From an uncultured Lachnospiraceae bacterium (GTDB lineage Bacteria > Bacillota > Clostridia > Lachnospirales > Lachnospiraceae): DNA of 59,917 bases. Where the stretch lies: assembly GCA_947632555.1 (NCBI GenBank), contig CANRPU010000015.1, positions 1-59,917 on the forward strand. The letters are read 5' to 3'. The translations under genes were made by a program, and so were the position numbers. The notes under the pieces are model-generated. The model was not told the origin of the DNA. It was given only the letters and a program-made list of their open reading frames with translations, and did no database searches. Below, in pieces: positions 8,663-59,765 of the stretch (positions are counted from its first letter, which is position 1; the number at the start of each line of letters is the position of its first letter).

Positions 8663-10147
8663 ATGAATTCCTTATTTGAAAACCTGTTTATTTTTGAAAT
8701 GGCAAACAATCACCAGGGTAGCGTGCAGCATGGACTGGACATCATCCATGTACTGGGCGAAGTCAGTCGTAAATATCAAATTAATGCGGCAGTAAAACTA
8801 CAATACCGAGATTTAGATACGATAATCCATCCGGATTACATTGACCGCACAGACGTGAAGCATATCCCACGATTCCTCTCTACCCGCCTGACTAAGGATG
8901 AATTTTACGCATTGGTGCAGGCCATTCGCGACGAGGGAATGCACACAATGTGTACGCCGTTTGACGAGATTTCTGTGGACACCTGCATGGATCATGGAAT
9001 AGAGATCCTTAAAGTTGCAAGTTGCAGTGCAAAGGATTGGCCGCTTTTAGAGGCGGTCGCGAAAACCAAACGTCCGGTGATCCTTTCGACTGGCGGAAAG
9101 ACTTTTTCCGATATGGATAAAATCTATAACTTCATGGTACACCGTGACGTGGACTTCGCCATGCTCCATTGTGTCGGGCTTTATCCGGTAGGCTATGACT
9201 ACGTGCAGCTTAATTGCATGGATAAGATAAAGAATCGTTATCCGGGGATTGCGGTTGGTTATTCCGGTCATGAGAACCCAAAAGATTATACAGTTGCGCA
9301 GATGGCGGTGGCCAAGGGCGCAAATATTTTGGAACGTCATGTCGGACTGGCAACAGAAACTATCAATCTCAATAGCTACTCAACAGATGTACGTGACGTG
9401 GCCGGTTGGATCGAAGCAATCCTGGATGCCCGAAAAATCTGCGGGACAGATAAGAAATTCATCAGCAACGAAGAATTGCAATCCATGAATGAACTTGCAC
9501 GTGGTTGTTATGCGGCAAAGGCAATCAAGGCTGGCGAGGCAATCAAGCGGGAGGATGTATTCTTTGCCATGCCGTGTACCAACGGACAAATGACAAGCGG
9601 TGAATTTCAGGAGGGAACGATTGCAAGCCGGGATTATAGAATGAACGAGGGGATTTTTGAAACGAGGAAGGTTTCGGTCACGTCCGATATGCGCAGTATT
9701 ATCCATGACATCAAAGGGATGCTTTACGAAGCAAAAATTGTCGTCGGGTCGGAGTTTGAACTGGAACTGTCCCACCATTACGGTATTGAACACTTCCGTC
9801 ATTACGGGGCGACACTCATTAGCATCATCAACCGTGAATATTGCAAAAAGCTGATGATCATTCTTCCGGGACAGCAGCACCCGACGCATTACCATAAGGT
9901 TAAAGAAGAAACGTTCCAGGTCCTTTCCGGCACATTGACCCTGACGCTCGACGGTGTAACGAAAGATATCCATACTGGAGAGATCGTGACGGTCGAACGT
10001 GGTGTACCGCATTCGTTTACATCGAAAGATGGCTGCATCTTTGAAGAAGTATCGACGACGCATGTGAAGAACGACTCGTATTATGAGGACAAGCGTGTTG
10101 CCGAGATGGACTTGATGGAGAGGAAAACAATTCTGCGGGATTGGTAA
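8663..10147 (+). CDS. NeuB-type nonulosonic acid synthase fused to a cupin domain
   Basis: This 494-residue protein begins with a NeuB TIM barrel (residues 1-270), which condenses phosphoenolpyruvate with a hexosamine or hexose to make a nonulosonic acid. Signatures include MANNHQGSVQHG, VKLQYRD, MCTPFDE, VASCSA and LSTGGKT, then GYSGHE and ILERHVGL. An antifreeze/SAF-like domain follows at about 285-345 (ARGCYAAKAIKAGEAI). A cupin domain occupies about 385-470, with the metal-binding HPTHYHKVKEETFQ and the second motif GVPHSF. Classical NeuB ends after SAF, so the cupin is extra. It lies 22 bp after the cytidylyltransferase. No NeuC-type 2-epimerase is in the cluster. Confidence 0.88.
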   Translation: MNSLFENLFIFEMANNHQGSVQHGLDIIHVLGEVSRKYQINAAVKLQYRDLDTIIHPDYIDRTDVKHIPRFLSTRLTKDEFYALVQAIRDEGMHTMCTPFDEISVDTCMDHGIEILKVASCSAKDWPLLEAVAKTKRPVILSTGGKTFSDMDKIYNFMVHRDVDFAMLHCVGLYPVGYDYVQLNCMDKIKNRYPGIAVGYSGHENPKDYTVAQMAVAKGANILERHVGLATETINLNSYSTDVRDVAGWIEAILDARKICGTDKKFISNEELQSMNELARGCYAAKAIKAGEAIKREDVFFAMPCTNGQMTSGEFQEGTIASRDYRMNEGIFETRKVSVTSDMRSIIHDIKGMLYEAKIVVGSEFELELSHHYGIEHFRHYGATLISIINREYCKKLMIILPGQQHPTHYHKVKEETFQVLSGTLTLTLDGVTKDIHTGEIVTVERGVPHSFTSKDGCIFEEVSTTHVKNDSYYEDKRVAEMDLMERKTILRDW

Positions 10148-44885: not shown

Positions 44886-45800
44886 ATGCAGGGAAAAATC
44901 ATCAAGGGTATCGCCGGATTTTATTATGTGCATGTAGAAGATCTGGGGATATATGAATGTAAAGCCAAAGGGGCGTTCCGCAGAGAAGGCATAAAGCCTC
45001 TGGTGGGGGATAACGCCGAGATAGAAATTCTGGACGAGGAAGGCAGAAAGGGCAGTATGGTGGCCCTCCTGCCCAGGAAAAACGCGCTGCTGAGGCCGGC
45101 CGTAGCCAATGTGGACCAGTCGCTGGTGATCTTTGCCATGGCCAGACCTGCACCCAGCCTGAATCTTCTGGACCGCTTTCTGATCATGATGAAGCAGAAC
45201 GGGCTTCCCTGCATTATCTGTTTTAACAAGCAGGATATCGCGGACGAGGCGGAACGCAGCCTCCTGGCGCGGACTTATGAAAAATGCGGCTGTAAAGTGC
45301 TTTTTCTAAGCGCGTTAAAAGAAGAGGGCGTAGAAGAATTAAAAGAACTGTTAAGGCACAGGACCACCACCGTGGCGGGGCCAAGCGGCGTGGGGAAATC
45401 CTCTTTGGTCAACCTGCTGCAGAACGGCACTGTGATGGAAACCGGAGATATCAGTAAAAAAGCCGGGCGCGGCAGACATACTACCAGGCACTCCGAGCTG
45501 CTGGCCATGGGAAACGGCACATATATCATGGACACGCCGGGCTTCAGCTCTCTTGGAGTATTTGAACTGGAGAAAGAAGAGCTGGCGGCGTTTTATCCGG
45601 AATTTCAACCGTATGAACCGGATTGCCGCTTTCAGGGCTGTTCCCACATAAGTGAGCCGGACTGCGGAGTAAAGACGGCCCTGGAGCAGGGACTGATCAG
45701 CGCGAAGCGATATGAAAATTACAGACTGCTCTACGAAGAATTAAAACAGAGGAAACGCGAGTATCGTAAAGCGGTCACGAAGGATCCTGTTCCGCGTTGA
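44886..45800 (+). CDS. rsgA: Ribosome small-subunit-dependent GTPase RsgA
   Basis: This 304-residue circularly permuted GTPase helps mature the 30S subunit. It has an N-terminal OB fold (KIIKGIAGFYYV), G4 FNKQD, G1 GPSGVGKSSLVNLL, G3 DTPGFSS and the zinc-binding C-terminus CRFQGCSHISEPDCGV. The order G4-G1-G3 is diagnostic. It ends the housekeeping operon, and its last 26 bp overlap the convergent sensor kinase gene. ATG 44886 lies 6 bp after the prkC stop. Confidence 0.93.
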   Translation: MQGKIIKGIAGFYYVHVEDLGIYECKAKGAFRREGIKPLVGDNAEIEILDEEGRKGSMVALLPRKNALLRPAVANVDQSLVIFAMARPAPSLNLLDRFLIMMKQNGLPCIICFNKQDIADEAERSLLARTYEKCGCKVLFLSALKEEGVEELKELLRHRTTTVAGPSGVGKSSLVNLLQNGTVMETGDISKKAGRGRHTTRHSELLAMGNGTYIMDTPGFSSLGVFELEKEELAAFYPEFQPYEPDCRFQGCSHISEPDCGVKTALEQGLISAKRYENYRLLYEELKQRKREYRKAVTKDPVPR

Positions 45801-48800
45801 ACAGCTCCCGCAGGAGGGACATCATTCTGTCAAGGTCAATGGGTTTGGACAAATGTCCGTTCATTCCGGCGGCCAGCGCCTGTTCTCTGTCCTCGGCAAA
45901 GGCATTGGCGGTCATGGCGATGATAGGGATGCCTGCCAGCTGAGGATCTTCCATGGCGCGGATGGCGCGGGCGGCGGCGTAGCCGTCCATGACAGGCATC
46001 TGGATATCCATCAGGATCAGATTGTAATAGCCCGGCGCGGACTGAAGCAGCATATCGCAGGTCTGCCGGCCGTCTTCGGCGCATTCTACCAGGAAGCCGG
46101 CCTCTTCCAGAAGTTCGGAAGCAATTTCCCGGTTAAGTTCATTATCTTCCGCCAAGAGAATACGTTTGCCCGCGAAGCTTTCTTCCCGGTGGGGAGCAGG
46201 CTCTTTTTTATTGTTTTCTTCCTCGGATCTGCCCAGACTGCGTTCCAGGGTGTGGTGGAGATCGGAAGCGAAGAGCGGCTTGCTGACAAAGCCGGTGACC
46301 CCGGCCTGACGGGCTTCCGATTCAATATCCGACCAGTCGTAGGCGGACATGAGGATAATAGGAGAGTCCTGGCCTATGATCCTGCGGATTTCCCGGACGG
46401 TTTCGATGCCGCTCAGTTCCGGCATGGACCAGTCCACGATATAGACTTCAAAAGGATCCGTAAGCTCCACGGCTTCCGCGGTGCGGGCAATGGCTTCCGG
46501 ACCGGAGAGAGCCCATTCGGCGCGCATGCCGATCTGACGGAGCATTTTGGATACGCTTTGACAGCAGACCATATCGTCATCCACCACCAGACCGCGGAAA
46601 TCTTTCAGCTCTTCAATAGGAGCCATCTCTTTATGTACGGCGGAAAAGCGCAGTTCCAGACTGACGGTAAATACGGTGCCCTTACCGTGTTCACTTTCCA
46701 CACGGATGGTGCCGCCCATCATATCCACAATATTTTTGGTGATCGCCATGCCCAGACCGGTACCCTGGATCCCGCTGACGGTAGAGGTCTGTTCCCTGGT
46801 GAAGGGATCAAATACGGTTTTCGCGAATTCGGGGCTCATGCCGATGCCGGTATCGCTGACCTGAAATTCATAAAGGCCGCGGTCCGCGCGGCCGGAAGCC
46901 TTCTGCGTGACGCGAACGGATATGGTACCGCCGACAGGAGTAAATTTGATGGCGTTGGAGGTCAGGTTCAGCAATATTTGATTCAGCCGCAGTTTGTCGC
47001 AGCAGATTTCCTCGTCTGACACATCGACGGTATCAATGAAAAGTTCCAAATGCTTGGCGTGGATATCCGACTGAATGATGTTGCGCAGTTCCTGGAGGAT
47101 CTTGGCCAGATTTTCCGGCCGTTCGGTGATCGTGACTTTGCCGGACTCGATGCGGCTCATATCCAGTACGTCATTGATCAGCGAAAGGAGATGGCTGGAT
47201 GCCTGAGTGATCTTGGAGAGGTAATCCCGCGCGCGTTCTTTGTTCTCCAGGTGGGCGGTGGTCAGAGCGGTATAACCGATAATGGCGTTCATAGGCGTCC
47301 GGATGTCATGGGACATATTGTTCAGAAAAGTGGTTTTCGCTCTGTTGGCGGCATCCGCTGCCTGAAGGGCCTGGGTCAGTTCCCGCGTCTTTTGTTCCAG
47401 CTCGCCGGTGGCCAGCGTGATCTTCTTCTGCAGCAGTTTCTGGTTGCGCGTTCTTACCGCCAGCATGGCCAGCGCGAAGAGCAGCAGAAAGAGAACACCG
47501 ACGCCCAGTACACTGTAGAGAGGATTCCTGTAGAGAAAGGCCGTCAGGCTGAGATCCTTTTCGATTCCCGCATCGATCTCCCTGGCCATAACGGCATCCA
47601 GTTCCGCGTCGGTAAAACTGTCCGCGCCTTTATCCAGAAGAGAGAGCAGATAACGGCCTCCCTGCACGTTGTTGCCCACGGCGTAGGAAAGAGAAGTATC
47701 TCCGAAGACAACAACGGAGAGCCGGTTGCGGACATCCTGCCGCGCGTATTTTTCGGCAGTGTAGGAATAGAGGATGGCGGCGTCGGCCTCCCCGTCCAGT
47801 ACCGCCTGTACGCAGTCCGATGTGGAAGGGTACCGGGTGACGGCATCTTCGGGATAACGCGCGGCGATCAGGCTGTCAAGGGCATCGGAGCGTTCCATTA
47901 CCGCAAGCCGGTTTACCGTTCCGCTGAAGCCGTCCAAAGTCAGACGGCCAAAATTGGTATGGAAATAAGGAACTGTGATCTTATAGCCTTCTTCCTCCGC
48001 CAGGTAATAGTCACCGGCGAAGTCCAGTACGATATCCGCGGCGCCGGTCGCGCGCAGAGCATAATATTCACTCTGATCCCGCACCGGAATATACTCGTAG
48101 TTCAGACCCAGGCGCTGGGCAAGAATGTCGAAAAGGGAAGGGAGAATGCCCTGTGCCTGGCCGTCCTGAAAATAGCAGTAGGGGGCCTGGTCAGGGTTGA
48201 CGAGCAGCCGCAGGGGAACGCCGGAAGCGTGATGCTCTTCCAGAAAAGCCCGCTCGCCGGCGTTCAGGATAACGGAACCGCTCTGATCGGTGGCGTAATA
48301 GGTTTCATGCAGGACTTCCCGCCAGTTTGGATCGTGGAGATCCATTTCGTTGATGGCCGCGTTGATCCTGTCCATCAGGTCGGCGCGGTCTTTACGGGTG
48401 CAGATGTAAAAGGGACTGGCATCGAAGGAATCCAGCAGCCATTCGTTCTCCAGCAGCCGAAGACTGCCGGTCACCGCGGCGTCCACGCTGCCGTCCTGAA
48501 GGGCGGCGCTGAGCTCGTCCTGTCCGGCGAAGTAGACCGGCTGGAAGGAAAAAGCATGTTCCCGCGCGAAGCGTTCAAAGTTGGCGTTTTTGGAGTTGCC
48601 CTCCAGCATGCCCACCGTGATGCCGTCATAGGTAGCGTAATCGCCTTCCACAATGGCCTGATTTCCGGCTTTTACGGTAAAGATAGTAGAGTTGACGCCA
48701 ATGTCCTGGTTCGAAAAGAGAAATTCTTCCTCCCGATCCGGCGTTTTGGAAACGGAAGTGACGATATCCACTTCCCCGTTTTGGAGCATGGTCAGGGCAT

Positions 48801-49053
48801 CCGCGTAAGAGTCATCATACCCCACATATTCATAGGACCAGCCGCCGTGGATAGCCAGCCGCTGGAGAAATTCATAACCATAGCCGCTCCGGCGGCCTTC
48901 CTCATCTATGGTGTGATAACCGGAAAAAGCAAAAAAACCTACTTTCAGAATCTCAGGCTGTTCCGTTTCCGGCCGCGCGGCATATACGGGGAAGCAGGAA
49001 GCCGCGTACAGCAGCGCTGCCAGTATAAGGCATATCGGGCGTATCTTTCTCAT
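45775..49053 (-). CDS. Hybrid sensor histidine kinase with two periplasmic-type solute-binding domains and two receiver domains
   Basis: This 1092-residue protein has a signal peptide (residues 1-25, ending VYAA) and two tandem bacterial solute-binding (SBP_bac_3) domains (about 35-255 and 275-505), one of which likely binds a small amino acid or similar ligand. One membrane helix follows (about 520-540), then a coiled coil, the H-box NMSHDIRTPMNAIIGY, the ATPase with NLTSNAIKF, DTGIGM and GTGLGM, and two receiver domains: IVDWSMPELSG in the first and LLAEDNELNRE with MDIQMPVMDG in the second. No HPt domain is seen, so phosphate may pass to a separate protein. It resembles BvgS/EvgS-type sensors. 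Its promoter lies at 49089-49117 in the region shared with cas3. Confidence 0.9.
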   Translation of the reverse strand: MRKIRPICLILAALLYAASCFPVYAARPETEQPEILKVGFFAFSGYHTIDEEGRRSGYGYEFLQRLAIHGGWSYEYVGYDDSYADALTMLQNGEVDIVTSVSKTPDREEEFLFSNQDIGVNSTIFTVKAGNQAIVEGDYATYDGITVGMLEGNSKNANFERFAREHAFSFQPVYFAGQDELSAALQDGSVDAAVTGSLRLLENEWLLDSFDASPFYICTRKDRADLMDRINAAINEMDLHDPNWREVLHETYYATDQSGSVILNAGERAFLEEHHASGVPLRLLVNPDQAPYCYFQDGQAQGILPSLFDILAQRLGLNYEYIPVRDQSEYYALRATGAADIVLDFAGDYYLAEEEGYKITVPYFHTNFGRLTLDGFSGTVNRLAVMERSDALDSLIAARYPEDAVTRYPSTSDCVQAVLDGEADAAILYSYTAEKYARQDVRNRLSVVVFGDTSLSYAVGNNVQGGRYLLSLLDKGADSFTDAELDAVMAREIDAGIEKDLSLTAFLYRNPLYSVLGVGVLFLLLFALAMLAVRTRNQKLLQKKITLATGELEQKTRELTQALQAADAANRAKTTFLNNMSHDIRTPMNAIIGYTALTTAHLENKERARDYLSKITQASSHLLSLINDVLDMSRIESGKVTITERPENLAKILQELRNIIQSDIHAKHLELFIDTVDVSDEEICCDKLRLNQILLNLTSNAIKFTPVGGTISVRVTQKASGRADRGLYEFQVSDTGIGMSPEFAKTVFDPFTREQTSTVSGIQGTGLGMAITKNIVDMMGGTIRVESEHGKGTVFTVSLELRFSAVHKEMAPIEELKDFRGLVVDDDMVCCQSVSKMLRQIGMRAEWALSGPEAIARTAEAVELTDPFEVYIVDWSMPELSGIETVREIRRIIGQDSPIILMSAYDWSDIESEARQAGVTGFVSKPLFASDLHHTLERSLGRSEEENNKKEPAPHREESFAGKRILLAEDNELNREIASELLEEAGFLVECAEDGRQTCDMLLQSAPGYYNLILMDIQMPVMDGYAAARAIRAMEDPQLAGIPIIAMTANAFAEDREQALAAGMNGHLSKPIDLDRMMSLLRELFNAEQDPS

Positions 49054-49088
49054 AATCTTACTCCTTCGCGCAGAATAAAACCAAATTT

Positions 49089-49117
49089 ATTATACGGGAA
49101 ACGAAAAGCAGATTCAA
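49089..49117 (-). promoter_or_regulatory. Promoter of the sensor kinase
   Basis: On the minus strand TTGAAT (49117-49112), a 17-bp spacer and TATAAT (49094-49089) lie about 35 bp before the kinase ATG, with AAGGAGTAAG between. This is a strong vegetative promoter pointing away from the cas genes. Confidence 0.75.
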
Positions 49118-49135
49118 GACCAATGATGTTGCATC

Positions 49136-49164
49136 TTGACAAGCATGGAAAACTGTAGTAGTCT
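49136..49164 (+). promoter_or_regulatory. Candidate cas operon promoter
   Basis: A consensus TTGACA at 49136-49141 has a 17-bp spacer to TAGTCT (49159-49164), a weak -10. An alternative -10, TATAAC at 49188-49193, lies in the predicted Cascade target but lacks a good -35. Either start would transcribe the crRNA-like element and cas3 together. Confidence 0.5.
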
Positions 49165-49184
49165 TAAATAAGGCAGCGCGATCA

Positions 49185-49205
49185 AAGTATAACATATTAA
49201 GAAAA
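49185..49205 (+). promoter_or_regulatory. Predicted self-target of the crRNA-like element (PAM AAG + 18-nt match)
   Basis: AAG at 49185-49187 is followed by TATAACATATTAAGAAAA (49188-49205). This matches the first 18 nt of the spacer-like sequence at 49235 in 15 of 18 positions, with mismatches at 6, 12 and 17. AAG is the canonical type I-E PAM of E. coli. Type I-E Cascade flips every sixth guide base, so mismatches at 6 and 12 should be tolerated. The remaining 15 positions of the 33-nt spacer match only 3 times, which should allow binding but not full R-loop formation or Cas3 cleavage. The site sits in the cas leader, so binding would repress transcription. This is an inference from sequence. 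Confidence 0.7.
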
Positions 49206-49296
49206 GAACCGCCAATATTGTGGTGGATGAACCGTATAATATATTCAGAATACGCGCGCTTTGTGCCAATTACCCCACAGTTGTGGGGAAGATGCC
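49206..49296 (+). ncRNA. crRNA-like regulator (CreR-like): degenerate repeat - 33-nt spacer - degenerate repeat
   Basis: The first repeat-like unit (49206-49234) ends in a perfect GGATGAACCG. Its stem is CCGCCA (49209-49214) with TGGTGG (49221-49226); this replaces CCCCAC/GTGGGG of the array repeat while keeping 6 pairs (one G-U) and the same distance to the ATGAACCG handle. A 33-nt spacer-like segment follows (49235-49267, starting TATAATATATTC), the same length as many array spacers. The second unit (49268-49296) keeps CCCCAC/GTGGGG with loop AGTT instead of GCGA and has a decayed 3' handle. Cas6e could therefore release one unit with an AUGAACCG handle. It lies 44 nt before the cas3 start. 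Cas-regulating RNAs of this layout (CreR) are known from other type I systems; assigning this one to that class is inference. Confidence 0.75.
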
Positions 49297-49340
49297 GCTT
49301 TGAGAGAACAAAAGTAAATGAAAAACGGATCGGAGAAAGA

Positions 49341-51989
49341 TTGGAAAATACGGATTTAGGTATTTTAAAAAAAATATGGGCCAAGTCTGCGCCTTTTCAG
49401 TCTATAATAGCGCATTCGTTCAATACGGCGGCTGTTGCCCGGGGACTGTTGACAGAGGGAACACTTCACCCTGTCTTATCGGACTTATCCTTATGGATTT
49501 TTAGAGATCAGTCTGAAGAACATAAGGATGCGGCACGCAGTCTGATGGAATATCTGGCTGCTTTACACGATATAGGAAAAATTCACCCTGCCTTTTTGAT
49601 CACGGAAGATAAAAAAGGCGTGTGCGAATTACTGGAGAGCACACAGTTAGTGGAGGATTATCACGATGAAATTAAAAGTTTCCGGCATGAGAAATATTCC
49701 AAAACCATATTAGAGCGTATTTGGAAAGCTAAAAAACGATTTGAAAATGAGGATAAGAACGATAGTACCGTTCGGTATTTTTCTGATCTGGAATCATTGC
49801 ATCACCAGGGAAAAAGCGGACAAGGAAGGGAAATACCGGATGAAAAGGTAAGGGGGCTCTGGCAGCGGCAGCAGGATGTTTTGGAAGAGGTGGTATTTGA
49901 ACTCTTTCGGCCTCCCAGCGTTACGGTAAACAGCAAAGTGACCGGTCATGTTTCAGCCATATGTATGCAGATGCTCGGTACGATCATTTTATCGGATTGG
50001 CTGGCGTCAAGCGCTGCCTTTTCGGAAGAAGAACTGAAAGACGGAGAAGATCTCAGTGAATATTATTTCAGGCTTACCGAAAAATCCTTCAGCCTGATAA
50101 AGGGATCACGAGTATTACGGACGGAACTTCCGGCGGGAACTTTTTTCCCTGAAATATGGACGGGCATCCCACGGGAAAAGATGCGCTCCCTGCAGAAGGT
50201 CACAGAGGAGCTGATGGCGGATGAGAAAAAACCCCTTCTTTTTATCATAGAGGCGCCTATGGGGGAGGGAAAAACAGAAGCCGGAACCTATGCCGCGTTT
50301 CAGATGGGGCGGTACTACAGAAAAGAAGGATTTTATATCGCCATGCCCACATCCGCTACCGCGGATCAGATGTATCATAGGATGCGTGATCTGATGAAAT
50401 CTTTGTTTCCGGATAAGGAAGTAAGATTGCTTCATTCGCTTGCCTGGCTGACTGACAGGGATACGCGGGAAGAAGGAGAATTTGATCTGGAAGACAGGGA
50501 GTGCGCGATGAAATGGACACAGCCACTCCGCAGGGGGCTGCTGGAGGGATATTCGGTAGGGACGATCGACCAGGCCCTGATGGCGGCGTTGTATGTGAAA
50601 TATGGTGCTGTCAGACTTCTGGGGATCGGGTGTAAAACATTAATTTTAGATGAGGTGCATGCCTATGACGCGTACATGGAGGATATCCTTATAAAATTAT
50701 TGGCGTGGTGCCGGGAATTGAGAGTGCCGGTGGTCATACTTTCCGCCACGCTGCCAAATGTGACGAAAAAGGAAATATTAAAAGTGTATGGGATCGAATA
50801 CCAAAAGGAGGAGAAAGAATATCCTGCAGTCACTTCCGTGTTTGAGGACGGGAAGTATGCCACAACGCGAATCCCCGATGTATCAAGCAAAAAAACCGTA
50901 CAGATCGAGCTCGCGCGGGAATTGAACATAATGGAAGCGGTTAGTCTGCGCGCGGTCCGCATGGTGGAGAAGGGTGGCTGTGTCTGCGTTCTGGTCAATA
51001 CGGTGGGAACGGCTCAGAAATTGTATGAAACAATAAAAAGAAACAAGCCTGAAGAACTGCGGCTCTATTTGTTCCATGCCGCGTATGCCGTAAGAAGGCG
51101 TCAGCAAATCGAAGAAGAGATCGTAAGATTATTTGGAAAAGATAAAACAGAACGCCCCGCGAAGGCCATTTTGATCGCCACGCAGGTAGTGGAACAATCG
51201 ATTGACGTGGATTTTGATAGCATTATAACGGAGATCGCCCCCATCGATCTGTTGCTGCAGCGTATGGGACGTATTTTCCGTCATGATGATACGCCGCGGC
51301 CCAGTTCCTGTATGTTTCCCAGAATGACAGTTCTGATACCGGAAGAGGGAGCGGATTATGGATTGAGCGGGATCGTATATCCCAGAATACTGCTGGATAT
51401 GACATGGCAGTATTTGACTTTGCATTCTCAAATACACTGCCCGGAATCCATTCAGGAGGCGGTAGAGAGCGTGTATGCGGAAAACGCGGGCGTGAGGATA
51501 AACCTGGAAGAATGGATGGCGTACCGGATGGATGTGGGAATGAAACATTCTCAAGCAAAAATTCAGGAATTGCCAGCTCCGAGTAATAAATTTAAGATAT
51601 ACAAAACGGTCAACCGGATAGAAGATCTGTTTGATGACGGAGAAAGTAATAGCTTTCTTTCCGCGAAAACCCGGCTGATCGAACCAACCCTGCAGATCGC
51701 GATCGTTCCTCCGGAAATATATGATAAGGCGGTGAAGGCTCTGCAGCCGTCAAAGGAGCTCGCGAAAGAAGTGTATCGGTATTCCGTGTCGGTGGCGGAG
51801 CGGAGGGTGAAAAAATTTTATCCTGAATTTCAGAAGGCCAAAGTACTGCAGGGGAACGGACTGCTGAAAAATATCTTGATCTTTCCGGGAGAAGCGGGAA
51901 GCGTGAAGATAAGGGAAGATGTTGTTTTTGAATTAGGAGATGAACTGGGATTTATAATTCGGGAGGATGAGAATATTGATACATTTTGA
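49341..51989 (+). CDS. cas3: CRISPR-associated helicase-nuclease Cas3 (type I-E)
   Basis: Cas3 is the nuclease-helicase that degrades DNA bound by Cascade. From TTG 49341 it has 882 residues. The HD nuclease domain is at the N-terminus, with IIAHSFNTAAV (H25) and LHDIGKIHP (H76, D77). The helicase has Walker A APMGEGKTEAGT (about residue 306), DEVH at 437-440, LSATLPN and, in the second lobe, ATQVVEQSIDVDFD and LLQRMGRIFRHD. No ATG is available near the HD domain. TTG 49341 has GGAG 5 nt upstream, and in-frame codons further upstream run through the crRNA-like element. The 3' end overlaps cse1 by 23 bp, so the operon is compact. Confidence 0.93.
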   Translation: MENTDLGILKKIWAKSAPFQSIIAHSFNTAAVARGLLTEGTLHPVLSDLSLWIFRDQSEEHKDAARSLMEYLAALHDIGKIHPAFLITEDKKGVCELLESTQLVEDYHDEIKSFRHEKYSKTILERIWKAKKRFENEDKNDSTVRYFSDLESLHHQGKSGQGREIPDEKVRGLWQRQQDVLEEVVFELFRPPSVTVNSKVTGHVSAICMQMLGTIILSDWLASSAAFSEEELKDGEDLSEYYFRLTEKSFSLIKGSRVLRTELPAGTFFPEIWTGIPREKMRSLQKVTEELMADEKKPLLFIIEAPMGEGKTEAGTYAAFQMGRYYRKEGFYIAMPTSATADQMYHRMRDLMKSLFPDKEVRLLHSLAWLTDRDTREEGEFDLEDRECAMKWTQPLRRGLLEGYSVGTIDQALMAALYVKYGAVRLLGIGCKTLILDEVHAYDAYMEDILIKLLAWCRELRVPVVILSATLPNVTKKEILKVYGIEYQKEEKEYPAVTSVFEDGKYATTRIPDVSSKKTVQIELARELNIMEAVSLRAVRMVEKGGCVCVLVNTVGTAQKLYETIKRNKPEELRLYLFHAAYAVRRRQQIEEEIVRLFGKDKTERPAKAILIATQVVEQSIDVDFDSIITEIAPIDLLLQRMGRIFRHDDTPRPSSCMFPRMTVLIPEEGADYGLSGIVYPRILLDMTWQYLTLHSQIHCPESIQEAVESVYAENAGVRINLEEWMAYRMDVGMKHSQAKIQELPAPSNKFKIYKTVNRIEDLFDDGESNSFLSAKTRLIEPTLQIAIVPPEIYDKAVKALQPSKELAKEVYRYSVSVAERRVKKFYPEFQKAKVLQGNGLLKNILIFPGEAGSVKIREDVVFELGDELGFIIREDENIDTF

Positions 51990-53427
51990 TGTGCTGACAG
52001 AACCCTGGATTTCTGTGATCGACCTTCAGGGCAATAAAAGGGAACTGGGCGTTCTGGAATTGCTGGAGCAGGCGCCGCGGCTGAAAGAGATAGCGGATCC
52101 GGTCATTACATATGAATATGGGATCTTCCGCTTTTTATGTACATTCCTGATGGATGCGTATCGTCCAAGAGAATGGAGCGACCTGGAGGAAGTTTATCAG
52201 TCCGGAAAGTTCGATATGCGGCTTATCCGGGATTATGTGGCAGTCTGTAAAGAGGAGGGAGCTTCTTTTGACTTGTTTGATAAGGAACGTCCCTTTTTGC
52301 AGGCAGGATTTGACGAGAAATATGATAAAAAGCTGGTTTCGGTAGCGGCGCTTAATATTGCGCTGCCAAGTGGAAATAATCATGTGCATTTTGATCATCG
52401 TCTGGAAGAGGAGCAGGTGATGACCTGCGCCGAAGCTGCCAAAGGGCTTTGCGCGATCAATTTATTCTGCACCGCGGGAGTACGGGGTTATCCGTCTACC
52501 GTCAACGGGGCGCCGCCCATTTACTTTATACTGGACGATAAGACACTGTTTGGCAGTCTGGTATATTCCATGATCGCCGAAGATGAAGCGGGGAATATGT
52601 CATACAGTGATCCGCCGCCCGTCTGGAGATGTAAAGCGGAAATTGTACCTCAGGAAAAGGAAACGGATACTTCGGTCTTGTATGGAATGATGTATCCCTG
52701 CAGAAGGATCCTGCTGAAACCAGAAGAAGATGGAAATATTGTCAAAATGTTTCTGAGCCAGGGAAAAAATTATGTGGCCTATGATGCCTGGCGTGATCCG
52801 CATGTGTCCTATTTGCTTGGAGAGAAAGGAAGAGTGTCCCTGAAATCCAGCATGGAAAAAGAACCATGGAGAAATATCATATCCATCATGGCCCAAAAAG
52901 ATACGGCGCTGACTTTTGTAAGGAGGATCGTGGAAGAAAATCTGCTGGATGACATCGCGTTAAAAGCATACTGTGTCACTACGAGTCAGGCAAATTACCT
53001 GGACATGCAGAAGAGCCGGCTGCGGATGCCCCGCAGCATCGCGGAAAGCGAGATAAAGAGCGCGCGTATACAGGAGTTGATCCAGGAAATAGAAAAAATG
53101 AGCAGGATCCTGGGAAGATCGTTAAATGAATGCTATGAATATTCTAAGAAAGAAATCAGGAACATGATCCAGTCGGTACAGGCAGACTTTTTTGATCAGT
53201 GCAGAGATTATCTGCTGCGGGATATATTTGCCGAAATGGCCGGAATCCCGGACAAAGAAGCTTCACGCTGTAAGGAGGCCCATGTGAGAACACTGAGAAA
53301 GAGTTGTCTGAAGACCTTTGATCACGCGGTTGGAGCAATGATGTCCACTGGCTCTGAACTGGTGAGAATACAGAAAAAGAGAAAAGCGCTACTGGAAATG
53401 TTATACGCGGAAAACAGAAAGGAGTGA
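51967..53427 (+). CDS. cse1: Cascade large subunit Cse1 (CasA, Cas8e)
   Basis: This 486-residue protein is the type I-E large subunit, which reads the PAM and recruits Cas3. The N-terminal FDVLTEPWISVIDLQGNKRELGVLELL is a family hallmark, followed by FDLFDKERPFLQAGF. GVRGYPSTVNGAPPIYF is the conserved middle block and VWRCKAEIVPQE follows. The C-terminal part is a helical bundle. It overlaps cas3 by 23 bp. The PAM preference of this variant is not predictable by eye, which matters for the AAG interpretation at 49185. Confidence 0.92.
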   Translation: MRILIHFDVLTEPWISVIDLQGNKRELGVLELLEQAPRLKEIADPVITYEYGIFRFLCTFLMDAYRPREWSDLEEVYQSGKFDMRLIRDYVAVCKEEGASFDLFDKERPFLQAGFDEKYDKKLVSVAALNIALPSGNNHVHFDHRLEEEQVMTCAEAAKGLCAINLFCTAGVRGYPSTVNGAPPIYFILDDKTLFGSLVYSMIAEDEAGNMSYSDPPPVWRCKAEIVPQEKETDTSVLYGMMYPCRRILLKPEEDGNIVKMFLSQGKNYVAYDAWRDPHVSYLLGEKGRVSLKSSMEKEPWRNIISIMAQKDTALTFVRRIVEENLLDDIALKAYCVTTSQANYLDMQKSRLRMPRSIAESEIKSARIQELIQEIEKMSRILGRSLNECYEYSKKEIRNMIQSVQADFFDQCRDYLLRDIFAEMAGIPDKEASRCKEAHVRTLRKSCLKTFDHAVGAMMSTGSELVRIQKKRKALLEMLYAENRKE

Positions 53428-53434: not shown

Positions 53435-54007
53435 GTGAGTAAAAGCGAGGAACGAAGAGAGCGTATTGCCGCTTTTTTGAAAAGAGTGGATGCGCTTTCG
53501 GATTCAGAGAGGACTGTTCTCAGGAAAAGCGGAGGAAGGCTTTTAAAAGATGCTGATGCCGCGGCGCTGATGGTGTTTTATAAGGCGTTGGGAAATTTTG
53601 AAGAGCCTGCTTTTCAGGACAGAATGTTTCCGATTGCCTGCATGTATTGTATGTGGGATAAAGAAACTGCGCAGGAAGATCAGACGCCGCTGGCGGCTGC
53701 CATGGGGCAGTACGCGTCAGAAAAAAGACGGAGGGAGGGTTCGGTGAAATGGAATGAAAGCGAGAAGACCGATCCTATGGAGAGAAGACTGATCAAACTA
53801 TTAGATCAACGCTGGGATACAGATGGAATGCTTTGCCTCAGTGTATGGCGAATGGTGAAAATGCTGAAAAATGAAGGCAAAGTAATAAATATGGTATTTC
53901 TGGGAGAAGATTTCTGCCTGTGGAACGCCGGCAGTAAAAGTGTGCAGTGCCGCTGGGCAGAGGAATTTTATAGAGCCAATAAGGAGGAAGAAAAAAATGT
54001 TGATTGA
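53435..54007 (+). CDS. cse2: Cascade small subunit Cse2 (CasB, Cas11e)
   Basis: This 190-residue helical protein starts at GTG 53435 behind GGAGTGAGGGA. Two Cse2 copies form the belly of Cascade and steady the R-loop. Weak but consistent family features are its length, RIAAFLKRVDAL, ADAAALMVFYKALG and AMGQYASEKRR, and RLIKLLDQRWDTDGMLCLSVWRMVKML with conserved basic residues. The stop overlaps the cas7 start by 11 bp. The assignment rests mainly on order and helical pattern. Confidence 0.88.
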   Translation: MSKSEERRERIAAFLKRVDALSDSERTVLRKSGGRLLKDADAAALMVFYKALGNFEEPAFQDRMFPIACMYCMWDKETAQEDQTPLAAAMGQYASEKRRREGSVKWNESEKTDPMERRLIKLLDQRWDTDGMLCLSVWRMVKMLKNEGKVINMVFLGEDFCLWNAGSKSVQCRWAEEFYRANKEEEKNVD

Positions 54008-55133
54008 GATTCATATGCTGAAAAACTATCCACCGACCAACCTGAACCGGGATGATCTGGGAACTCCCAAAACCTGTTTTTTCGGAGGGACCAACCGAAG
54101 CAGGATATCAAGTCAGTGTCTGAAGCGGAGCTGGCGTAAAAGCATGGCTTTTGAGGAAAGCGTAGGAAGAGAGAATCTCGGAGTACGAACGAGAAAAATG
54201 CCATTGCTCGTGAAAGAAAAGCTGATGGAAATGGGAGTGGCGGAAGAGATCGCCCAAAAGATCCTCCCGCAGCTGTCCGCTATTGGGAATACTTCTGAAA
54301 AACCTTATAAGGATCCGACCAAAACGGCGCAGATCGCTATATATTCCCGCAGGGACATAGAGGATATCGCGAAGGTGGTAAAGCAGGAGATTGATGCATG
54401 CGGTGAAAGCAAAGATGTGGAAAAGATCAAGGCCAAAATGATCCAGGAAAAGATTTCTGATGCGAAGATAAGACCTATTTCACTGGATATCGCTCTGTTT
54501 GGAAGAATGGTCACCACGGATGCGTTCCGTGACGTTGAGGCCGCCGTACAGGTGGCGCACGCTCTGTCCACCAACAGGGTGATAATGGAATCAGATTATT
54601 TTACGGCAATGGATGACCTGGTATCAGGAAAAAGTCAGGATGACGCGGGAGCGGCTATGATCGACAATACGGAGTATAACTCTTCCTGCTATTATATATA
54701 TGCATCCATTGATACGGATATTTTGGAGGAAAATTTAAGAGGCCTGGATAACGCGCGGGAACTGAAATCTATGGCTGTCACCGGAATGCTGGAGGCAATG
54801 GCGTATTCAGATCCCAGCGGCAAGCAGCACGCGTTTGCCGGACATATTCTTCCCTCCGCGGTCATTGTTGAGTGTAAGGACAAAAAAGTGCCGGTTAGTT
54901 ATACTAATGCTTTTGCCAGTGCTGTTTATCCTGATGAAAAAGGAGATATTATACGCAAAAGTATTATGGCGCTGCTGGAAGAGCAAAAGACGATAAAGAA
55001 AGATTTCTCTCTTCCTGTAAAAGCGACACTGACTTTTTGTTCCTCGAGATACAGTGATATCCTGGAACAGGAAGATATCCAGGTATGTCATAACTATGAA
55101 GAATTAGTCAAAAATACAGTCGCGTTATTATAG
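53997..55133 (+). CDS. cas7: Cascade backbone subunit Cas7e (Cse4, CasC)
   Basis: This 378-residue RAMP protein forms the six-copy backbone that holds the guide and inserts a thumb every sixth base. The start at ATG 53997 follows AAGGAGG. The N-terminus IEIHMLKNYPPTNLNRDDLGTPK and GGTNRSRISSQCLKRSWR are family signatures; PISLDIALFGRMVTTDAF and VQVAHALSTNR also fit. Because Cas7 causes base flipping at every sixth position, mismatches at 6 and 12 in the predicted self-target should be tolerated. It overlaps cse2 by 11 bp and is followed 11 bp later by cas5. Confidence 0.93.
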   Translation: MLIEIHMLKNYPPTNLNRDDLGTPKTCFFGGTNRSRISSQCLKRSWRKSMAFEESVGRENLGVRTRKMPLLVKEKLMEMGVAEEIAQKILPQLSAIGNTSEKPYKDPTKTAQIAIYSRRDIEDIAKVVKQEIDACGESKDVEKIKAKMIQEKISDAKIRPISLDIALFGRMVTTDAFRDVEAAVQVAHALSTNRVIMESDYFTAMDDLVSGKSQDDAGAAMIDNTEYNSSCYYIYASIDTDILEENLRGLDNARELKSMAVTGMLEAMAYSDPSGKQHAFAGHILPSAVIVECKDKKVPVSYTNAFASAVYPDEKGDIIRKSIMALLEEQKTIKKDFSLPVKATLTFCSSRYSDILEQEDIQVCHNYEELVKNTVALL

Positions 55134-55144: not shown

Positions 55145-55825
55145 ATGGCAGAGGTATGTATTATTCTTTTACAACTGGAAGGAGCATTGCAGAGTTGGGG
55201 AGAACATTCCCGGTTTGACTATCGGGACAGCGCGGCGCTTCCAACGAAATCCGCTATTGTGGGCATGATCGGATGCGCGATGGGACTGCGGCGTGGAGAT
55301 GAGGACTTGGAGCGGATATCCCAAAATATCCGATTGGCAGTACGCTGTGACAGGCCCGGGAAAATGTACATAGACTATCATACGGTTACAGCGGAGAAAA
55401 AAATATTGAACGCCGCGGGAAATCCCAGGTGTGATACGATCGTGACGCATAGGACTTATCTGCAGGATGCCGCTTTTCTGGCGGCAGTTCAGACAGATCC
55501 GGAATTGGCTGAAAAAATAGTCCGCGCGTTTCAGGCACCCCGCTGGCCGATATATCTGGGGCGTAAGTGCTGTATACCGAGCGTTCCGGTATTTAAAAGG
55601 ATGGCGGAAGAGTATCATTCCCTGGAAGAGGCGATGATATCGGAACCTTTATTGGATTCTTGCCAAAAACGCGGCTTAGGACCGGAAAAGGTGTTCTATG
55701 AAATGGACAGTATGGATGGAAGTGGATATGACCGAACGGATGAATTGGTCAATGCCCAAAAACGTTGTTTCGCTCCCAGAAAAGTGAGATTGGTATGCAA
55801 GGAGGAACCCCATGTATCTGAGTAA
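55145..55825 (+). CDS. cas5: Cascade subunit Cas5e (CasD)
   Basis: This 226-residue RAMP protein caps the 5' end of the crRNA handle. The N-terminal LLQLEGALQSWGEHSRFDYRD and TKSAIVGMIGCAMGLRRGD are typical of Cas5e, as is the HTVTAEKKILNAAG block with a THRTYLQDA strand and the YLGRKCCIPS segment near residue 140. It overlaps cas6e by 14 bp. It would bind the AUGAACCG handle of both array crRNAs and the crRNA-like regulator. Confidence 0.92.
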   Translation: MAEVCIILLQLEGALQSWGEHSRFDYRDSAALPTKSAIVGMIGCAMGLRRGDEDLERISQNIRLAVRCDRPGKMYIDYHTVTAEKKILNAAGNPRCDTIVTHRTYLQDAAFLAAVQTDPELAEKIVRAFQAPRWPIYLGRKCCIPSVPVFKRMAEEYHSLEEAMISEPLLDSCQKRGLGPEKVFYEMDSMDGSGYDRTDELVNAQKRCFAPRKVRLVCKEEPHVSE

Positions 55826-56411
55826 GTTTGTGATAAACAGAGAGAATCCTTCCGCGCGGCAGGCTATGTGTAATGTTCAGGATTTCCATAGAAATCTTAT
55901 GGCGAGATTTCAAACAACACGCCAACAGTCCGGCGTTTTATATCGGATAGACTGGTCAAAGCAGAATCCTTTTGTATATGTTTTATCCAGTGTGATGCCA
56001 AAAGAGATAACGCGGAAGGATATGAAATTGATAGGATGCCGGCAGATTGATTTCATGCTGCGGGATATACATGAAAACCAGCGATTCGGTTTTGATATCT
56101 GCGCGATACCTTCTAAAAAAATGCCGCAGGAGGGAAAAAAGAATGGATCGCGTATTACCCTGCGCTCAGAACCCGAAAGACTGGAATGGATGCGGAAAAA
56201 AGCAGCGCGGGGCGGCTTTCAGATCATAACGATACAGGAAGTCAACGCGGTAAAGACGTTTGGAAGTCATGGAAATAACGTCATGAAACTATGCGGTTAT
56301 CATTATCAAGGTCAGCTTGTGGTAGAAGATCCTGAAAAGTTTCGCAAGACTTTCTGCGAAGGGATAGGACCGGATAAGGCATATGGGTTTGGAATGTTAT
56401 TGCTGATATAG
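55812..56411 (+). CDS. cas6e: crRNA-processing endonuclease Cas6e (CasE)
   Basis: This 199-residue RAMP nuclease cuts the repeat RNA at the base of its stem and stays bound to the hairpin. H26 (in VQDFHRNL) sits exactly where the catalytic histidine of Cas6e lies in other species. The glycine-rich loop GIGPDKAYGFGMLLL closes the protein, and VQDFHRNLMARFQTTRQQSG is a conserved opening. Its substrate stem here is CCCCAC/GTGGGG followed by AUGAACCG. The rearranged stem of the regulator keeps the same geometry. It overlaps cas5 by 14 bp. Confidence 0.93.
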   Translation: MYLSKFVINRENPSARQAMCNVQDFHRNLMARFQTTRQQSGVLYRIDWSKQNPFVYVLSSVMPKEITRKDMKLIGCRQIDFMLRDIHENQRFGFDICAIPSKKMPQEGKKNGSRITLRSEPERLEWMRKKAARGGFQIITIQEVNAVKTFGSHGNNVMKLCGYHYQGQLVVEDPEKFRKTFCEGIGPDKAYGFGMLLLI

Positions 56412-56424: not shown

Positions 56425-57342
56425 TTGAAAAAGGATTTGAAAGAACTTCCCAAACTGCGGGACAGTATCAGTTATATCTACATCGAGCATGCCCGGATTG
56501 AACAGGATGCCGCCGCGGTGATCTTTGAAGTGGATGATGGAAGGATACCGGTCCCGGTAGCTTCTTTGACCTGTCTTATGCTGGGACCGGGAACAACAAT
56601 TACGCATGCGGCGATCAAAACCATAGCGGAAAATGGCTGTCTGGTCGTATGGTGTGGTGAAAACGCGGCGCGATTTTACGCGAGCGGAATGGGAGAAACC
56701 AGAAGCGCCCGGAATATTCTGCTGCAGGCGGAACTGTGTATGGACCCGGATAAGCATCTTAATGTTGTCAGAAAAATGTATGAGATACGGTTTCCTGATA
56801 TGTCAACGCAGGGCATGACTTTAGAGCAGATCAGGGGTATGGAGGGGATACGTGTGCGTCAGGCATATCAGACGGCCTCCAGACAGTATGGGATACGGTG
56901 GCGCGCACGGGACTATAAACAAAATGACTGGAGCCAGGCGGATCCTGTTAATCGCGCATTGTCAGAAGCAAATGCCATTTTATATAGTTTATGCCAGGCT
57001 GCGATTATTTCTTTGGGGTATTCAACGGCGCTCGGTTTTATTCATACGGGGAAAATATTGTCTTTTGTGTATGATATTGCCGATCTTTATAAAGTAGAAA
57101 CTACCATTCCCGCGGCATTTGAAGCTGCAAGAGGGAACGAGCGGGAATTGTCCAAAAATGTGCGGCTGTATTGCCGCAGGTATTTTGCGGCCGCGGATAT
57201 TTTAAAAAGAATCGCAAAGGATATTGAAATGATATTTTCATTAAAAGGGTCAGAAAAAGATTTTTCAAAAGCAACCGGAGATATCTGGACGGCTGACGGA
57301 GATACGATAAGTGGAGGGGTTAATTATGGAAGGAGTGAATAA
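56425..57342 (+). CDS. cas1: CRISPR integrase Cas1 (type I-E)
   Basis: Cas1 integrates new spacers with Cas2. The 305-residue length equals that of E. coli Cas1. The catalytic set falls at E140 (GMEGIRVR), H207 (GFIHTGK) and D220 (VYDIADLYK), one residue off the E. coli E141/H208/D221. The start is TTG 56425 with GGAGG at 56413-56417. It ends at TAA 57340-57342, and cas2 follows in the same frame 3 bp later. Confidence 0.95.
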   Translation: MKKDLKELPKLRDSISYIYIEHARIEQDAAAVIFEVDDGRIPVPVASLTCLMLGPGTTITHAAIKTIAENGCLVVWCGENAARFYASGMGETRSARNILLQAELCMDPDKHLNVVRKMYEIRFPDMSTQGMTLEQIRGMEGIRVRQAYQTASRQYGIRWRARDYKQNDWSQADPVNRALSEANAILYSLCQAAIISLGYSTALGFIHTGKILSFVYDIADLYKVETTIPAAFEAARGNERELSKNVRLYCRRYFAAADILKRIAKDIEMIFSLKGSEKDFSKATGDIWTADGDTISGGVNYGRSE

Positions 57343-57345
57343 AAC

Positions 57346-57618
57346 ATCGTAATCTACATTATTGAATCGGCGCCGGAAAGTTTATATGGGGAACTGTCCC
57401 GTTGGATGATAGAACCAAAACATGGGGTATTTGTGGGAAATCTGAACGCGATGATCAGAGATAAATTGTGGGACAAGATTCAAAATGCCGGGGAAGAAAT
57501 AAACGCGGTCATGGTATTTAATTCTGATTCAGAGCAGGGATATTCCTTGAAAATGTATGGAAATCCGAGGAGGAAAGTGGTAGACATAGAAGGTGTCGAA
57601 CTGATAAAACTCCAGTAA
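57346..57618 (+). CDS. cas2: CRISPR-associated Cas2 (type I-E) with an apparent ATC start
   Basis: Cas2 bridges two Cas1 dimers. The frame directly after the cas1 stop encodes VIYIIESAPESLYGELSRW and then MIEPKHGVFVGNLNAMIRD, the normal Cas2e N-terminus and first helix; VVDIEGVELIKLQ closes it. There is no ATG, GTG or TTG before residue 21. The first Met codon (57406) would remove the first beta strand. AAGGAG at 57330-57335 is 10 nt before ATC 57346, so ATC is the best start (90 residues). A sequencing or assembly error, or a real rare start, are the alternatives. Confidence 0.8.
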   Translation: MVIYIIESAPESLYGELSRWMIEPKHGVFVGNLNAMIRDKLWDKIQNAGEEINAVMVFNSDSEQGYSLKMYGNPRRKVVDIEGVELIKLQ

Positions 57619-57637
57619 AATAAGCTTTTATGTTAGT

Positions 57638-59144
57638 ATTTACCCCACGCGAGTGGGGATGAACCGAAAACTTCAATACGGGTATTGAAAAAAACTGCAT
57701 TTACCCCACGCGAGTGGGGATGAACCGAAAGTAATTTTGACTACCCGTACAAACTAGGAATTTACCCCACGCGAGTGGGGATGAACCGAAAAGGCCAGAT
57801 GTTCAATGTGGACAATATGAAATTTACCCCACGCGAGTGGGGATGAACCGAATCAGAGGACGGCTTCGATTGGCTGGACGATTCATTTACCCCACGCGAG
57901 TGGGGATGAACCGAAAAAATCAATCATAATGTTTTCCTCCTCAAAATTTACCCCACGCGAGTGGGGATGAACCGAACACTAACCGGCCATCTTTCCGGGA
58001 ATTAATATTTACCCCACGCGAGTGGGGATGAACCGAACTAAATACCTCAATGAATGCGCTAGAAAAGGATTTACCCCACGCGAGTGGGGATGAACCGGCT
58101 TCCGGCAAAAATAACTGGTGTAGATACGATATTTACCCCACGCGAGTGGGGATGAACCGAGCTTCCTTTTGCTACGCTTTTTGATGTTCATCATTTACCC
58201 CACGCGAGTGGGGATGAACCGATAAATATTACACCTTACATTGGTAAATTGCAATTTACCCCACGCGAGTGGGGATGAACCGATCCTCAGATAGACTATT
58301 ACAAACACAATCAATATTTACCCCACGCGAGTGGGGATGAACCGTGCCGATTTTGTAATACACTTTGGAGGTGATGATATTTACCCCACGCGAGTGGGGA
58401 TGAACCGTAACTTTTCAGCCGTATTACCAGCATTTATAGAATTTACCCCACGCGAGTGGGGATGAACCGAACAGCACCAAAATGACTGGATTGGTTGTAA
58501 TAATTTACCCCACGCGAGTGGGGATGAACCGGAGAAGAATCACCAGAAGAAGCGTCTATCGAAACATTTACCCCACGCGAGTGGGGATGAACCGAAAAAA
58601 TGTAATACATTTTACGGAAAGAAGCATTTACCCCACGCGAGTGGGGATGAACCGGTTTGAAATCCTAAATCTTAATGAGATTGTAAAATTTACCCCACGC
58701 GAGTGGGGATGAACCGTTGACGGAGATATGGACACTCTTGCCACAATTCATTTACCCCACGCGAGTGGGGATGAACCGTCATCCGGGATCCCCAGGCTTC
58801 ATGCGCACCTGATTTACCCCACGCGAGTGGGGATGAACCGGAAGGAGGCCTGGCGTGCCGGTATTCCTTGAATTTACCCCACGCGAGTGGGGCTGAACCG
58901 TTGCTGGAAATAGTTCTCCATGGCTTCCAAGCATTTACCCCACGCAAGTGGGGCTGAACCGACCGGATCTGATTTTTTTGTTGGGAAAAATAATTTACCC
59001 CACGCGAGTGGGGCTGAACCGACCAGGATTATCATGGACCAGTTTGGTGATGAATTTACCCCACGTGAGTGGGGCTGAACCGACTTTGAAAAGATGGCCG
59101 ATGAACTGAAAGTGAATTTACCCCACACAAGTGGGGATGAATCC
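57638..59144 (+). CRISPR. Type I-E CRISPR array, 25 repeats and 24 spacers
   Basis: Repeats are 29 nt, starting ATTTACCCCAC, with a CCCCAC/GTGGGG stem, GCGA loop and ATGAACCG 3' handle. The first is at 57638-57666 and the last at 59116-59144; starts recur every 60-63 bp. Spacers are 31-34 nt, mostly 32-33. Repeats 1-20 are identical. Repeats 21-24 (58872, 58933, 58993, 59054) have GGGGCTG in place of GGGGATG; 22 and 24 also have loop changes. The last is decayed (CACAAG, ends GAATCC). The decayed end is far from cas2, so the leader lies on the cas2 side, only 19 bp after the cas2 stop. Handles match that of the crRNA-like element upstream of cas3. Confidence 0.98.
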
Positions 59145-59282
59145 TTGGCCGTATGCTTGTATGTGGTAAAAAACGACAAACAAAGCTGATACGGATAGCC
59201 ACCCATTGCCATTCCAAGCAGGGCAGCCGGGCCAGGACCCTCTGTGGAGGAAAAATCGTCATATAGGAGGATACAGAGCATT

Positions 59283-59765
59283 ATGGCAACTGTTTATCTT
59301 ATCTGCGGTAAATTGTGCTGTGGCAAAAGCACTTACGCGAAGAAACTGAAAAGGAATCATAAGGCTGTCGTATTGTCGGTAGATGAAATCATGCTTGCGG
59401 TATTCGGACTGTATGCAGGCGAAAAGCACGATGAATATGCCGCAAACGTGCGGACATATCTGTTTGAGAAATCATTGGAACTGATCCAAACGGGTGTCAG
59501 TGTGATCCTCGACTGGGGATTTTGGACGAAAGCCGCGAGATACGAGGCAAAGGCGTTTTATCGAAGCCGGAATATAGAATGTGAGCTGTACTATCTGGAT
59601 ATCAGCGATGAGGTTTGGCAGGCGCGTATAAATCAAAGAAATCGGTCCATCATGGCAGGCGAAACGACGGCTTATATCGTTGACAGCGCTCTTGCCGCAA
59701 AATTTGAAGCGAAATTTGAGCCGCCTGCCAAAGAAGAAGTGGACGTATGGGTCAGTGGTGGATAA
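59283..59765 (+). CDS. P-loop kinase-like ATPase
   Basis: This 160-residue protein has a Walker A motif, LICGKLCCGKSTYAKKL (GKxxCGKST), followed by VVLSVDEIMLA, and resembles small AAA_33/zeta-toxin-type kinases that phosphorylate nucleosides, sugars or antibiotics. VILDWGFWTKAARYEAKAFY and LYYLDISDEVWQARINQRN contain a lid-like basic region. I chose ATG 59283 with AGGAGGA upstream; an earlier ATG at 59244 is possible. It stands alone after the CRISPR array and is closed by the terminator at 59796. The substrate is unknown and no link to CRISPR is evident. Confidence 0.8.
   Translation: MATVYLICGKLCCGKSTYAKKLKRNHKAVVLSVDEIMLAVFGLYAGEKHDEYAANVRTYLFEKSLELIQTGVSVILDWGFWTKAARYEAKAFYRSRNIECELYYLDISDEVWQARINQRNRSIMAGETTAYIVDSALAAKFEAKFEPPAKEEVDVWVSGG

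Follow-up and report, generated by a model that had tools for sequence, protein, structure and literature searches.

Why should a unit shaped like a CRISPR RNA (crRNA) stand directly in front of cas3, kilobases away from the array whose repeats it resembles, and what would it do there? The question is raised by a stretch of 59,917 nucleotides from an uncultured Lachnospiraceae bacterium (hereafter the window), which carries a complete type I-E system in the order cas3-cas8e-cas11-cas7-cas5-cas6e-cas1-cas2, followed by the array. The genes, all on the plus strand, are cas3 (49341-51989, with a proposed TTG start behind GGAG), cas8e or cse1 (51967-53427, TIGR02547), cas11 or cse2 (53435-54007, TIGR02548), cas7e (54000-55133, TIGR01869), cas5e (55145-55825, TIGR01868), cas6e (55812-56411, TIGR01907), cas1e (56425-57342, TIGR03638) and cas2e (57343-57619, PF09707; these are the limits of the stretch tested, and the true start may lie slightly upstream). 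The canonical array (57638-59144, plus strand) has 25 repeats, the last five of which (58870-59144) are variant, four with GGGGCTGAACCG and the final one decayed; presumably these are its oldest repeats. In the direction opposite to the cas operon runs a gene for a large hybrid sensor histidine kinase (45775-49053, minus strand), and a TTGAAT-17-TATAAT site is found at 49117-49089. A gene for a small AAA_33 P-loop protein (59244-59765) lies downstream of the array.

A sequence-only reading of this locus had reported two degenerate repeats around a 33-nt spacer-like stretch before cas3, about 8 kb from the array. Direct reading confirmed this element (49206-49296), which lies 44 nt from the cas3 start and has the array 8.3 kb downstream. 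It consists, on the plus strand, of psi-repeat 1 (GAACCGCCAATATTGTGGTGGATGAACCG, 49206-49234), the 33-nt spacer-like guide of the predicted cas-regulating RNA, or CreR (TATAATATATTCAGAATACGCGCGCTTTGTGCC, 49235-49267), and psi-repeat 2 (AATTACCCCACAGTTGTGGGGAAGATGCC, 49268-49296), and has the organization looked for in a CreR, a repeat-guide-repeat unit outside the array and linked to the cas operon. Psi-repeat 1 ends, as that reading held, in an exact copy of the 8-nt 5' handle (ATGAACCG, 49227-49234). Its stem (CCGCCA/TGGTGG) had been described as rewritten on both sides and still pairing, and indeed three of its six pairs are changed on both sides relative to the array repeat with pairing kept, one of them as G-U. 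Psi-repeat 2 has a perfect 6-bp stem (CCCCAC/GTGGGG), also looked for in a CreR together with the exact 5' handle, and a decayed handle. Both psi-repeats are degenerate, as would be expected of a relic, i.e. a decaying mini-array or a self-targeting spacer taken by accident from the cas leader and functionless now; the parts of a mature type I-E crRNA (handle, guide and 3' hairpin) are nevertheless intact, and it is the discarded parts that have drifted.

The hairpins were compared with shuffled sequences. Predicted folding energies were -8.6 kcal/mol for psi-repeat 1 (z -3.0, equalled by 2/200 shuffles) and -11.2 kcal/mol for psi-repeat 2 (z -2.6, 3/200), and the fold of the whole 91-nt element was less marked (z -1.4, 16/200). 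Outside the array, nothing in the window matches the array repeat without gaps as well as psi-repeat 2 does (20/29 positions; the next best has 18), and the element scores 26 in an anatomy-only search for repeat pairs, in which only one of 108 shuffled strand scans reached 25 or more. A whole-genome search with the repeat core, allowing up to three mismatches, returned the 25 array repeats alone and neither psi-repeat, and a search of Rfam gave no match near the gathering score at the element.

The guide has a matching site directly upstream of the element and directly 3' of an AAG (49185-49187, plus strand), the presumed PAM; in E. coli, Cascade works best with this same trinucleotide. The target (49188-49203, plus strand) is the seed part of a protospacer at 49188-49220 and matches 14 of the first 16 guide bases, with mismatches solely at positions 6 and 12. 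In having such a partly complementary seed site in the cas leader, beside a presumed PAM, the element shows a further feature looked for in a CreR. The runner-up site within 2.5 kb reached at most 12/16 when positions 6 and 12 were not forgiven, none of 200 shuffles reached 14/16 with an AAN PAM, and seed plus PAM occur at a single site in the 2.57-Mb genome with up to one mismatch allowed. Seven of the 24 array spacers were searched against viral contigs for PAM information, with positions 6, 12 and 18 left open, and gave no matches; the whole array gave no match to phage records. An AAG beside the target is also what the source of an acquired spacer would show, a point in favour of a relic.

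Published properties of E. coli Cascade bear on how such a match may be read. Every sixth base of the type I-E crRNA is flipped out (PMC5904413; PMC12871591), an AAG PAM with seed pairing is enough for Cascade binding, a match of up to 18 bp already gives maximal affinity, and extensive pairing is required for interference and priming (PMC5904413). The unbroken match in the window ends at position 16, so by the E. coli data it would allow binding and be too short for Cas3 cleavage or priming. We consider it very probable, from the sequence, that the element encodes a CreR-type RNA which would guide Cascade to 49188-49203 and block transcription of its own cas operon. The sequence-only reading had proposed a crRNA-like RNA restraining its own cas genes; the AAG-flanked target, unnoticed there, and seven other loci described below support that proposal.

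Transcription would start from a predicted creR-cas3 promoter (49136-49164, plus strand) composed of TTGACA (49136-49141), a 17-nt spacing and TAGTCT (49159-49164). Its -35 box is perfect and its -10 box weak (3/6), and because of the weak -10 box it is absent from the list of a promoter scan, which held two minus-strand sites where 1.1 were expected by chance. A TTGGCG-18-TATACT site with TG (49186-49215, minus strand) overlaps the target, about one such site being expected by chance. Given the position of the predicted promoter, transcription would begin about 17 nt before the first base of the target, and the element would belong to the 5' UTR of cas3. The transcript would be processed by Cas6e to give an RNA with the 5' end AUGAACCG-UAUAAUAUAUU, i.e. 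starting AUGAACCGUAUAAUAUAUU, and with the psi-repeat 2 hairpin as its 3' end. Cascade loaded with this guide would then bind the AAG-flanked site and repress creR-cas3 transcription, the site being held and left uncut. Since guide and effector would both come from the promoter that they shut, the loop would be self-limiting, and by analogy with CreR as reviewed it would open once Cascade is claimed by competing array crRNAs or inactivated by an anti-CRISPR.

A wider survey of type I-E loci was made with Cas8e or Cas7e searches of 299, 392, 398, 101, 397 and 381 genomes (draws that partly overlap), with 9, 12, 31, 3, 15 and 10 positives respectively, the genome of the window being included each time. 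The resulting set comprised 64 loci, the window and 63 further ones; genome G767, with a partial Cas7e match below the cut-off, was not included. The loci were scanned on both strands for a hairpin, a G-rich arm, a handle ending in CCN and an AAN-flanked match of at least 11 positions, with guide positions 6, 12, 18 and 24 forgiven. In 8 of the 64 loci the scan found an element that has a guide of its own and, before the cas operon or an adjacent gene, a site matching that guide beside an AAN; this count is a lower bound because several loci lie on short contig pieces on which cas3 was not found (L021, L039, L041, L048, L068, L069 and L076); a search of genome contigs with a three-sequence Cas3 alignment returned two loci. 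The carriers are the window, G592 (same genus), G173, G029, G111 and G084 (same family), G337 (same order) and G658 (same class), that is, 6/17 loci of the family, 1/7 of the rest of the order, 1/10 of the rest of the class and 0/30 outside the class. Absence of the element from related type I-E loci is what the sequence-only reading had named as refuting it; that no more than 8 of the 64 loci show the element, and none of the 30 outside the class, counts against the CreR reading. The PAM is AAG in five carriers, AAC in G658, AAT in G111, and AAT and AAC at the two targets of G084.

Shuffled sequences worth three such locus scans gave five hits, three with runs of at least 13, and three of the five came from one GC-rich locus. 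The anatomy-only search, which is blind to targets, could be applied to the 54 of 64 loci with a parsed array repeat, and among the matches listed (the best two per locus) it contained six of the eight elements (window, G173, G337, G111, G658 and G084). The element of G592 is missing there because the best two matches of that locus are array-tail rows, and G029 falls outside this search because it has no array. The same matches include debris at array ends and, away from array tails, three with a score of at least 25 and no target (G976, G1001 and G1179); having no target in the stricter scan, they were not counted as carriers. A scan of 50 loci without the PAM rule proved noisy (its shuffles, of twice the search space, gave 187 hits), and the stricter AAN-flanked scan was therefore relied on. 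Without the hairpin rule 66 hits were obtained, and 25 in shuffles, none of the latter with AAG. Among its listed rows, many were stray repeats of L024 matching that locus's own array and were dropped, as were a long repeated palindrome in G688 and an AAG match among the cas genes of G225 (run of 13), for which the stricter scan gave no element.

Two layouts were observed among the carriers. In the window, G592, G173 and G029 the element is downstream of the matched site, so that in the window, and likewise in these three relatives, it lies within the leader that it would silence; in G337, G658, G111 and G084 it is upstream of the matched site or on the opposite strand. The second layout counts against a purely RNA-level switch, in which the leader hairpins would be a site of Cas6e binding and cutting that tunes the cas mRNA, the guide being irrelevant. 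Such a switch would suit the window itself, where the element would belong to the 5' leader, each of the two repeats folds into a hairpin and a cut would cleave the leader of the cas mRNA. It leaves the PAM-flanked match and its exact register unexplained, however, and it does not suit G337, whose element precedes the promoter that it targets and has a run of T at its end, nor G084, whose element is on the opposite strand, both being outside the cas leader. As the whole explanation it is extremely unlikely; control at the RNA level may act in addition to the guide.

The position of the targets relative to promoters is consistent with repression by bound Cascade. TTGACA-17 promoters with 10 to 12 matches occur at the equivalent place in G592, G173, G029 and G337, and in five of the seven elements tested (these four and the window) the PAM starts 35-49 nt past the start of a perfect TTGACA with 17-nt spacing, a count for which no chance level was computed; the distance is 49 in both the window and G592. 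A PAM so placed would be at or just after the start of transcription. The target of G658 overlies a TTGATA-17-TATACT promoter, and no good promoter was found near the target of G111.

If the guide matters, it should agree with its target locus by locus, and the comparison among the carriers bears on this. Guides vary among the loci and the targets vary alongside. For each of the eight elements the best AAN-flanked run (positions 6, 12, 18 and 24 forgiven) spans 13-18 positions when guide and site are in exact register, against 3-8 once the guide start is moved by 1-3 nt. Between the window and G592, positions 9 and 11 are changed in guide and target alike and the match is retained. MAFFT alignment of these two leaders did not bring the targets into register, and the position-wise comparison of guide and target was relied on for that reason. 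In the window and its three closest Cas8e relatives, positions 1-14 are mismatched in 5/8 cases at 6 and 12 and in 0/48 elsewhere (p 1.5e-5), and in a seven-locus version in 11/14 vs 1/84; both statistics are partly circular, the former through G029, whose target was picked by a scan forgiving positions 6, 12 and 18, and the latter more so, since some of its elements came from forgiving scans. Scans that forgave 6 and 12 had supplied three of the elements (G658, G111 and G084) and two of the targets (G029 and G337). An unforgiving AAN ranking selects the same site in all seven loci to which it was applied (G084 left out). If matches are simply counted, three targets taken singly are weak, since 42 of 200 shuffles do as well for G029, 8 for G337 and 18 for G658, and without the PAM rule a better site exists for the G029 guide and a tie for that of G337.

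A relic would come to mismatch its source anywhere. The four closest loci instead keep the match at the paired positions and lose it only at 6 and 12, and the joint change of guide and target between the window and G592 is likewise not what a functionless remnant would show. On the other side, the guide-target match of G173 is the longest seen (22/24), as if recently acquired, and G084 seems, by eye, to carry a second, decayed copy of its element. On balance a relic is very unlikely. The longer match of G173 might license cleavage. In the same locus a solitary repeat-like sequence (L012, ~3474-3502) occurs about 450 nt upstream of the creR element.

The stems tell a less uniform story. A stem flush with the handle is present in psi-repeat 1 of seven of the eight elements (6 bp in six, 5 bp in G173) and absent in G592. 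Compared with the stem of the local array, a C-G pair is replaced by T-A in three loci: G337 and G084, both with CCCTGC/GCAGGG, and G658, with ACCTGC/GCAGGT. The sequence-only reading had taken stem compensation as a mark of selection as RNA and had proposed to look for stem covariation in relatives: paired change was seen in these three loci and a stem in seven elements, and the same-genus relative has none, which weakens stem covariation as the main argument. Stem compensation is real and not universal, and the relation between guide and target is the stronger evidence.

Another reading is that the element is an antitoxin RNA of CreA type, repressing a toxin (CreT or CreP) hidden in the interval and making the cell dependent on Cascade. 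A type I-E CreTA exists in Citrobacter rodentium (PMC12055562), and open reading frames do cross the element of the window, one of 27 codons on the plus strand (49220-49303) and two of 51 (49114-49269) and 108 codons (49058-49384) on the minus strand. The 51-codon frame has a TTG start, appears hydrophobic by eye and gives no sign of expression. No recognised toxin gene lies between the target and cas3, although a tiny toxin such as CreT may still be encoded there. Judged by eye, none of the three frames has a recognised toxin, promoter or ribosome site, and they read through the element itself. The short frames over the element of G592 are, moreover, unlike those of the window by eye, and the sole genomic site of seed plus PAM precedes creR-cas3. 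One guide of G084 also faces the start of an Abi_2 (AbiD-like) gene, which would suit an antitoxin; for the window this reading is very improbable, and a CreR-type repressor of the cas operon is preferred.

The locus of G084 (L066) deserves a separate description. Its element (~5388-5490, minus strand) has one guide with AAN-flanked targets at 5562 and 7372. The former is upstream of the Abi_2/AbiD-like gene (5588-6547; PF07751, 1.3e-19; PADLOC AbiD, 2.3e-21) and the latter upstream of cas8e (7404-9065). From its sequence this looks like autorepression of cas and a CRISPR-repressed abortive-infection gene sharing one RNA. The apparent second copy (~7278-7310, by eye) has kept a hairpin and lost psi-repeat 1, and adjoins a duplicated cas8e leader.

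Accessory genes were observed in two further carriers. In G029 (L013, 7087-8359) the matched site is followed by a gene for a DUF1016/YhcG PD-(D/E)xK nuclease (7219-8259), the element and then cas3; this order suggests that the nuclease may be under the same control as cas3. The guide of this element is unusually short, about 20-24 nt. In G111 (L029, oriented coordinates 6324-6848) an ORF of 174 aa lies between the matched site and cas3, for which only a sub-threshold match to LPD3 was found in Pfam and no match in PADLOC; it could be a repressed accessory gene.

Taken further, these layouts allow a bolder reading, which we put forward tentatively and hold slightly less likely than otherwise: a homeostat made of a single transcript, whose 5' leader would encode the guide that silences it, with the locus of G084 as a CreR/CrePA-like fusion in one RNA. 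Cas6e would cut the nascent cas3 leader, and the freed guide, with Cascade, would return to the first bases of the template; the set point would be 14 base pairs, free of mismatches except at the bases flipped out in Cascade. If this is true, loss of Cascade in G084 would raise cas expression and the abortive-infection gene together. The Clostridia gain here a concrete and testable case in which a CRISPR system would use its own effector to meter how strongly it is expressed. The mismatch pattern (6 and 12 free, the others fixed to about position 14) reads like a record of the bases needed for binding without cutting, and may serve as a simple rule for spotting further elements from sequence alone. 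The two targets in G084 suggest that a single guide can serve both self-metering and the release of an abortive-infection gene.

Several known RNAs invite comparison. Like the array crRNA, the element of the window has the same handle, guide length and hairpin type; it differs in being solitary, with degenerate repeats, an unbroken match limited to the first 16 positions and a chromosomal site. The scaRNA of Francisella Cas9, named beside CreTA in PMC9458426, is likewise a crRNA-like RNA that makes a nuclease-competent effector a repressor, but it belongs to a type II system, its target is a lipoprotein operon and its RNA design is another. A further comparison is with CreTA. In the haloarchaeal type I-B case the Cas5-binding handle survives in the first repeat and has gone from the second, as described in PMC9458426, and the psi-repeat/psi-spacer layout, the handle pattern and a PAM-flanked partial target at a promoter recur in the window. 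The type I-E CreTA of Citrobacter rodentium has a 96-bp toxin ORF with the crRNA-like RNA on the other strand, and its psi-spacer target adjoins an ATG PAM (PMC12055562); the target in the window, unlike that of CreTA, precedes creR-cas3, with no recognised toxin gene. The closest counterparts are the CreR RNAs, cas-regulating RNAs reported by Liu et al. (2023, Cell Host Microbe), which, as summarized in the reviews PMC13131331 and PMC12737573, act as repressors in type I-B, I-E and V-A systems and are sensitive to the abundance of crRNAs and to anti-CRISPRs. Coupling to a toxin gene is generally not found in CreRs. The case in the window, which differs in being known from sequence alone, shares with them a crRNA-like unit that is ectopic and serves the cas genes of the same system, a guide partly complementary to the cas promoter and a predicted autorepression by its own effector. 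Type I-E is among the types for which CreR has already been reported, and the element is a further case of a known kind.
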